A stretch of 64,000 nucleotides of DNA, from contig NZ_CP088297.1 of the NCBI RefSeq assembly GCF_024666615.1, forward strand, positions 248,001-312,000, read 5' to 3'. This document shows, piece by piece, positions 13,336-49,007 of this stretch (the first letter of the stretch is position 1; each line of letters starts with the position of its first letter). Both the position numbers and the translations under genes were made by a program. The stretch comes from Aquabacterium sp. J223. Lineage in GTDB: Bacteria > Pseudomonadota > Gammaproteobacteria > Burkholderiales > Burkholderiaceae_C. The notes under the pieces are model-generated. The model had not been told where the DNA came from and did no database searches. It saw only the letters and a program-made list of their open reading frames with translations.

Positions 13336-14373
<1,038 letters not shown>

Positions 14374-14407: not shown

Positions 14408-14416
14408 TGCTAGACT
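14408..14416 (+). promoter_or_regulatory. extended -10 of the putative small RNA
   Basis: TGCTAGACT is an extended -10 (TGn followed by TAGACT). No good -35 at 17 bases is present, which extended -10 promoters tolerate. Transcription would begin near 14422. Confidence 0.35.
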
Positions 14417-14419
14417 GGG

Positions 14420-14534
14420 CGCCGGATGATAGCCACGCGGCGGTCGTCCCCTGCTTTTCCTCCCTGAGCAGGTGCTTGGTTGCCGACGGCAGCCGGGCTT
14501 TGTCCACCCCCGGTCGACCGACCGGGTTTTTTTT
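14420..14534 (+). ncRNA. putative structured small RNA (three hairpins, intrinsic terminator)
   Basis: About 115 nt between hemB and hemJ fold into three successive hairpins: CCTGCT/AGCAGG (14450-14472) with an 11-nt loop holding CCTCCCT, GGTTGCC/GGCAGCC (14478-14494), and CCCGGTC/GACCGGG (14509-14526) followed by eight T. The loop is complementary to a Shine-Dalgarno sequence, a property of Hfq-dependent anti-SD small RNAs in other proteobacteria. It does not carry the conserved blocks of 4.5S or 6S RNA. It could instead be an attenuating leader, but hemJ has its own close -10-like element after the terminator. No family is recognised. Confidence 0.5.
14509..14534 (+). terminator. rho-independent terminator
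   Basis: A perfect 7-bp stem CCCGGTC/GACCGGG with a 4-base loop is followed by eight T. This is the only textbook intrinsic terminator I found in the window, and no protein gene ends just before it on this strand. Confidence 0.8.
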
Positions 14535-14586: not shown

Positions 14587-15024
14587 ATGAGCGCTTACCC
14601 GTGGATCAAGGCCTTCCACCTCGTGTTCGTGGCGGCCTGGTTCGCCATGCTGTTCTACCTGCCGCGCATCTTCGTCAACCTGGCGGCGGTCAGCCCGGAC
14701 AGCCATGCCGAACGCGAGCGCCTGCTGTTGATGGGCCGCCGGCTGTACCGCTTCGGCGGCCTGCTGATGCTGCCGGCGCTCGCCTTCGGGCTGGTGCTGT
14801 GGCTGTGGTTCGGCGTCGGCCGCGGGCCCGGCCAGGGCTGGCTGCACGCCAAGCTGACGCTGGTGGTGCTGACCATCGGCTACCACCACAGCCTGGGCGC
14901 GATGCTCAAGCGTTTCGAGCGGCTGGCCAACCAGCGCAGCGAACGCTGGTACCGCGTCTACAACGAGGCGGCCGTGCTGCTGTTCGCGGCCATCGTCGTG
15001 CTCGTGGTCGTCAAGCCCTTCTGA
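14587..15024 (+). CDS. hemJ: protoporphyrinogen oxidase HemJ (CopD-like membrane protein)
   Basis: A 145-residue protein with four predicted membrane helices, the length and pattern of HemJ. YPWIKAFHLVFVAAWFAMLFYLPRIF carries the conserved His10 and the YLPR motif, and KLTLVVLTIGYHHS the conserved lysine and histidines. HemJ oxidises protoporphyrinogen IX to protoporphyrin IX late in heme synthesis, in the inner membrane. Proximity to hemB, the second enzyme of the pathway, supports the call. It lacks a leader, with GATAAT 6 bases upstream. Confidence 0.88.
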   Translation: MSAYPWIKAFHLVFVAAWFAMLFYLPRIFVNLAAVSPDSHAERERLLLMGRRLYRFGGLLMLPALAFGLVLWLWFGVGRGPGQGWLHAKLTLVVLTIGYHHSLGAMLKRFERLANQRSERWYRVYNEAAVLLFAAIVVLVVVKPF

Positions 15025-48983: not shown

Positions 48984-49007
48984 AAGGGCAGCCCGAGGGC
49001 TGCCCTT
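48984..49007. terminator. bidirectional terminator-like hairpin after rsmA
   Basis: A 10-bp stem AAGGGCAGCC/GGCTGCCCTT with loop CGAG. On the minus strand it is followed by TTTTCTTT, on the plus strand by a short T pair only. It separates rsmA from the minus-strand barstar region. Confidence 0.65.

Follow-up and report, generated by a model that had tools for sequence, protein, structure and literature searches.

A copy of the anti-hemB small RNA family between hemB and a hemJ-like gene of Aquabacterium sp. J223: gene model, conservation and promoter

Introduction

The closest described relative of the RNA analyzed here is ncS04 (anti-hemB) of Burkholderia cenocepacia J2315, a discrete RNA of 105 nt for which the start was determined by dRNA-seq and the 3' end by RACE, and which was detected by Northern blot and co-purifies with Hfq in B. 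cenocepacia (PMC5688073, PMC4603805). In the published qPCR table, none of the conditions (biofilm, stationary phase, starvation, glucose medium, osmotic stress, low pH, low iron) altered ncS04 significantly; SDS and H2O2 are also named among the conditions in the text of that paper, with values outside the table (PMC5688073). According to the same paper, the CU-rich loops of Burkholderia sRNAs would, by prediction, mask ribosome binding sites (PMC5688073). ncS04 is probably the RNA also called Bc7, as suggested by the shared name, the co-purification with Hfq and the description of the Rfam family RF02837 (anti-hemB, "Burkholderia RNA 7").

Two further systems invite comparison. The double-hairpin sRNAs ncS03/05/27/62 of Burkholderia (RF02278, toxic small RNA) possess an unpaired CU-rich stretch complementary to ribosome binding sites, as does the RNA described here, but differ in architecture. 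In Neisseria meningitidis, the sibling sRNAs NmsRA and NmsRB, encoded as a tandem pair, repress several mRNAs through anti-Shine-Dalgarno stretches (PMC5362039); here, the likeness would lie in the way of working.

The window, i.e., the whole stretch of 64,000 nt of Aquabacterium sp. J223 DNA analyzed here, had been inspected from sequence alone. This initial annotation placed at 14417-14534, next to hemB and hemJ, a structured small RNA whose first loop would serve as an anti-Shine-Dalgarno sequence.

Results and Discussion

Identification of the Small RNA as a Copy of anti-hemB

In an Rfam covariance scan, RF02837 matched positions 14447-14534 (+) of the window over its full length (model positions 1-81 of 81). 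This was the sole Rfam match within the whole 64-kb window; the RF02278 model gave no match in the window up to E = 10, and this is the only anti-hemB copy in the genome. The score of 50.6 bits (E = 7e-9 for the window) exceeded the gathering cut-off of 49.5 bits by only 1.1 bits, a doubt that the copies present in relatives remove; named Burkholderia copies reached up to 85.6 bits with the same model. The features expected of RF02837 were found: a CCTCCCTGA hairpin loop on a C-rich stem (the anti-Shine-Dalgarno hairpin in Table 1), a second hairpin, although divergent in sequence, a U-rich intrinsic terminator, and a place divergent from hemB, which is common but not universal in the family.

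The segment at 14447-14534 is a genuine sRNA gene and a copy of the known anti-hemB family. The full-length model match, the invariant loop, the terminator and the hemB neighbour are shared with Bc7/ncS04 of B. cenocepacia J2315. Since RF02837 matched at full length above its cut-off, the statement of the initial annotation that no family fitted was wrong; the gene is unannotated in the raw window, yet its family was already catalogued. The proposal that a structured small RNA is encoded here in its own right, with an anti-Shine-Dalgarno loop, was upheld, as the Rfam sRNA family matched by the locus has a Burkholderia member known as a discrete, Hfq-binding transcript. A chance origin of the hairpins and the T-run is excluded by the Rfam match and the conservation.

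Table 1. Features of the anti-hemB locus (positions within the window).
Feature	Position	Strand	Remarks
Predicted mature anti-hemB sRNA	14423..14534	+	about 112 nt; start from the -10 plus 7 rule; fold z = -4.6
Extended -10 promoter element	14408..14416	+	TGCTAGACT; TGnTAnAnT, conserved immediately before the RNA among copies from the same bacterial family
5' hairpin	14424..14449	+	mostly outside the Rfam model; conserved, with all Watson-Crick pair types
Anti-Shine-Dalgarno hairpin	14450..14472	+	loop TTCCTCCCT at 14457-14465; compensatory stem changes
Second hairpin	14474..14498	+	11-bp stem; relatives have the TGTGACAGC / GATGACAGC type, from which the sequence has diverged
Intrinsic terminator	14509..14534	+	perfect 7-bp stem (14509-14526), TCGA loop, T8
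hemB (porphobilinogen synthase)	13336..14343	-	divergent neighbour; orthologues at the named loci 70-88% identical
hemJ-like membrane protein gene	14587..15024	+	downstream neighbour; the name hemJ is that of the initial annotation

Start, Fold and End of the RNA

The transcription start was predicted by placing it 7 nt past the -10 element. This rule gives exactly 105 nt in Burkholderia ambifaria, the same length as reported for ncS04 of the closely related B. cenocepacia. The sequence and structure proposed for 14417-14534 were borne out; the predicted start moved from 14417 to about 14423, and the RNA of the window is predicted to be 112 nt long, as compared with 105 nt for ncS04. The segment 14417-14534 folded with -61.7 kcal/mol (z = -4.1), and the corrected segment 14423-14534 folded into three hairpins and the terminator with -56.8 kcal/mol (z = -4.6); in both cases, none of 200 shuffled sequences was as stable. 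Folding also confirmed the earlier reading of three tandem hairpins followed by a perfect 7-bp terminator with eight T, and the exposed CCTCCCT was present at 14459-14465, inside the 9-nt first loop.

The 5' hairpin, which the window copy has in common with the ncS04 type, was found at the equivalent place in 137 of 146 copies as compared with 47% of shuffled sequences, each copy being folded separately by a method that leans towards pairing; its base pairs vary freely. This additional hairpin and the promoter extend the family by a corrected gene model.

The terminator had been called the only textbook intrinsic terminator seen, which was nearly right: when all 64 kb were scanned under strict criteria, one other candidate was returned, with a broken T-tract. 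This other terminator-like hairpin, at 48985-49006 (-), has a 9-bp stem and the tail TTTCTTTG.

Upstream of the RNA, the extended -10 had been placed at the right distance, and it is conserved in the bacterial family of the window. In the promoter consensus of this family, CTTGNA precedes TGnTAnAnT, the latter part being present in the window. The -35 region is weak, with no good -35 element seen, and a generic promoter scan found nothing. The sequence of the second hairpin has diverged from that of ncS04 as well. A decaying copy, in which the promoter has changed and both the second hairpin and the -35 have drifted so that expression is weak or absent, would agree with a score in the lowest range of the family, the loss of the TGTGACAGC-type motif and the lack of a -35; as the loop, all stems, the terminator and the extended -10 are intact and the fold retains its z of -4.6, such decay appears improbable.

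Conservation and Range of anti-hemB

Since E. coli and other controls also gave RF02837 matches below the cut-off, family membership was counted for matches over the cut-off only. In the bacterial family of the window, 127 of 151 genomes gave a match, 118 of them over the cut-off; for the order, the figures were 192 of 250 genomes and 164, respectively. Outside the order, scores over the cut-off were rare: they occurred in ten of 185 genomes drawn, and two of these ten are members of the window's own family. The range of anti-hemB is much wider, comprising most families of the order and extending as far as relatives of Gallionella and Sideroxydans. Among the named loci, anti-hemB lies beside hemB in Burkholderia, Paraburkholderia, Pandoraea, Cupriavidus, Variovorax, Polaromonas, Roseateles, Rhizobacter and Noviherbaspirillum and in the Gallionella and Sideroxydans relatives.

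A covariance search in relatives had been suggested as a check by the initial annotation, and it revealed conserved stems and a nearly invariant CU-rich loop word. This word, CTCCCTGA, occurred in at least 88 of the 94 loci fetched with the model. Of the six others, three have the match near a contig end, so that a different stretch was read there; in the remaining three, the loop had changed and was still CU-rich. In an alignment of 20 sequences, compensatory changes were present at 9 of 20 consensus pairs. A second C-rich word, TCCCCTTT, is found in the terminator loop of most families outside that of the window (e.g., loci L033, L036, L059 and L066) and has been lost in the window's family.

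Some genomes of the class carry tandem sRNA copies about 200 bases apart, as in locus L090 (approximately 1299-1366 and 1501-1570). Within the window's family, several anti-hemB copies are present in some genomes, e.g., four over the cut-off in genome G087.

Neighbouring Genes and the Proposed Link to Heme

No real protein gene crosses the sRNA, the long (+) strand ORFs there being mirror images of hemB. The view that no protein gene ends before the terminator was upheld, since hemB is divergent and hemJ begins past the terminator. The start codon of hemJ follows the end of the sRNA by 52 nt on the same strand, an arrangement that would also suit a 5' leader or attenuator of hemJ. This reading is very unlikely: the strong terminator ahead of hemJ is conserved, many copies have no adjacent hemJ, the downstream gene is convergent in B. 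cenocepacia, and ncS04 is a discrete 105-nt RNA. The initial annotation had itself named the hemJ leader as the alternative, and the conserved terminator and the copies without hemJ speak against it.

The location had also suggested a link to heme, iron or oxidative stress. Regulation of heme synthesis in place, through pairing with hemB or hemJ mRNA, would be in line with the position between the two genes in the window, the presence of the motif ahead of hemB at 55 of the 80 named loci, and a review in which hemB is given as the predicted target of Bc7. When the loop was paired with the start regions of hemB and hemJ, 80% and 73% of random stretches, respectively, were equal or better, so both genes were rejected as loop targets. 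Several copies are found at a distance from both genes, and ncS04 is not altered by low iron. Because pairing was no better than random and B. cenocepacia showed no low-iron response, the link to heme, iron or oxidative stress is unsupported beyond the location, and regulation of heme synthesis in place is quite unlikely. The neighbourhood of heme genes alone does not mean heme control.

Predicted Mode of Action and Target Search

The reading preferred here is that of a single-copy anti-hemB sRNA which probably acts in trans on several unlinked mRNAs. The RNA would be transcribed from its own extended -10 promoter of the sigma-70 type and end at the intrinsic terminator. Hfq would bind through the 3' U-tail, and the TTCCTCCCT loop would be presented for pairing with AGGGAGGA-type ribosome binding sites, by which translation of the paired mRNAs would be blocked. 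The present analysis established to which family the RNA belongs, how it is structured and conserved, and its promoter element and terminator; the discrete transcript and the Hfq binding are taken from the literature on the Burkholderia homologue. Because of the U-tail, the open CU-rich loop, the independent promoter and terminator, and the Burkholderia Hfq data, we infer that Hfq-assisted repression by covering ribosome binding sites is the most likely role; this blocking and its targets are predictions.

A strict target scan with exact seeds (AGGGAGGA-N3-9-ATG) identified six genomic sites, of which about three precede plausible genes. The six include those of an ABC-transporter ATPase, of a protein resembling outer-membrane beta-barrels, and of a third long ORF, HD-domain-like by eye. 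Among the 27 sites read in relatives, which are part of the relatives' sites, no clear orthologue was found; the only overlaps were distant ATPase matches of 26-37% identity. As none of the six strict sites was conserved in the relatives examined, a conserved target of the AGGGAGGA-N3-9-ATG type was dropped and no target is supported.

A Sigma-E-Type Promoter in Other Families of the Order

RybB and MicA are sigma-E-dependent Hfq sRNAs of enterobacteria, and the motif GGAACTT-N14-17-TCTNA is similar to the sigma-E consensus of enterobacteria. A promoter of this type, GGAACTT-N15-17-TCTNA, is carried by anti-hemB copies from other families of the order. The element [GT][GA]AAC[TC] was present at a constant spacing from the RNA in 32 of 38 other-family copies. 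At least 9 of 11 matches to GGAACTT-N14-17-TCTNA were found in 50% of these 38 copies as compared with 5% of shuffled sequences, and 10 of 11 matches in 29% as compared with 0.7%. In contrast, none of 46 copies from the window's family, the window included, showed the motif at 9 of 11 matches. Compared by promoter type, the likeness to RybB and MicA thus holds for the relatives in other families and not for the window copy.

RpoE (TIGR02939) was present in all 49 other-family genomes tested, with 283-336 bits. Of 46 genomes from the window's family, 8 had no match at E <= 1e-40, three more were below the cut-off, and the rest scored 240-285 bits. A promoter switch accompanying the divergence of RpoE fits these data; the correlation is weak evidence because it possibly reflects one single evolutionary event. 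Upstream of rpoE itself, no good GGAACTT site was present within 450 nt in 18 loci, so autoregulation of rpoE does not confirm the sigma-E motif.

It is tentatively proposed, at somewhat less than even chances, that anti-hemB is a sigma-E (RpoE) sRNA of the Betaproteobacteria which, like RybB and MicA, belongs to an envelope-stress circuit, and that it was rewired to a housekeeping promoter in the window's family upon divergence or loss of RpoE. In the open-access literature, no report on RF02837 or on an RpoE-dependent sRNA in Betaproteobacteria was found. The sigma-E-type promoter that anti-hemB has in the majority of the order's other families is a new lead, and a sigma-E ancestry, if true, would be the first functional handle for the anti-hemB family. 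The copies bearing the sigma-E-like promoter are among loci L032-L086, L143, L158, L162 and L164.
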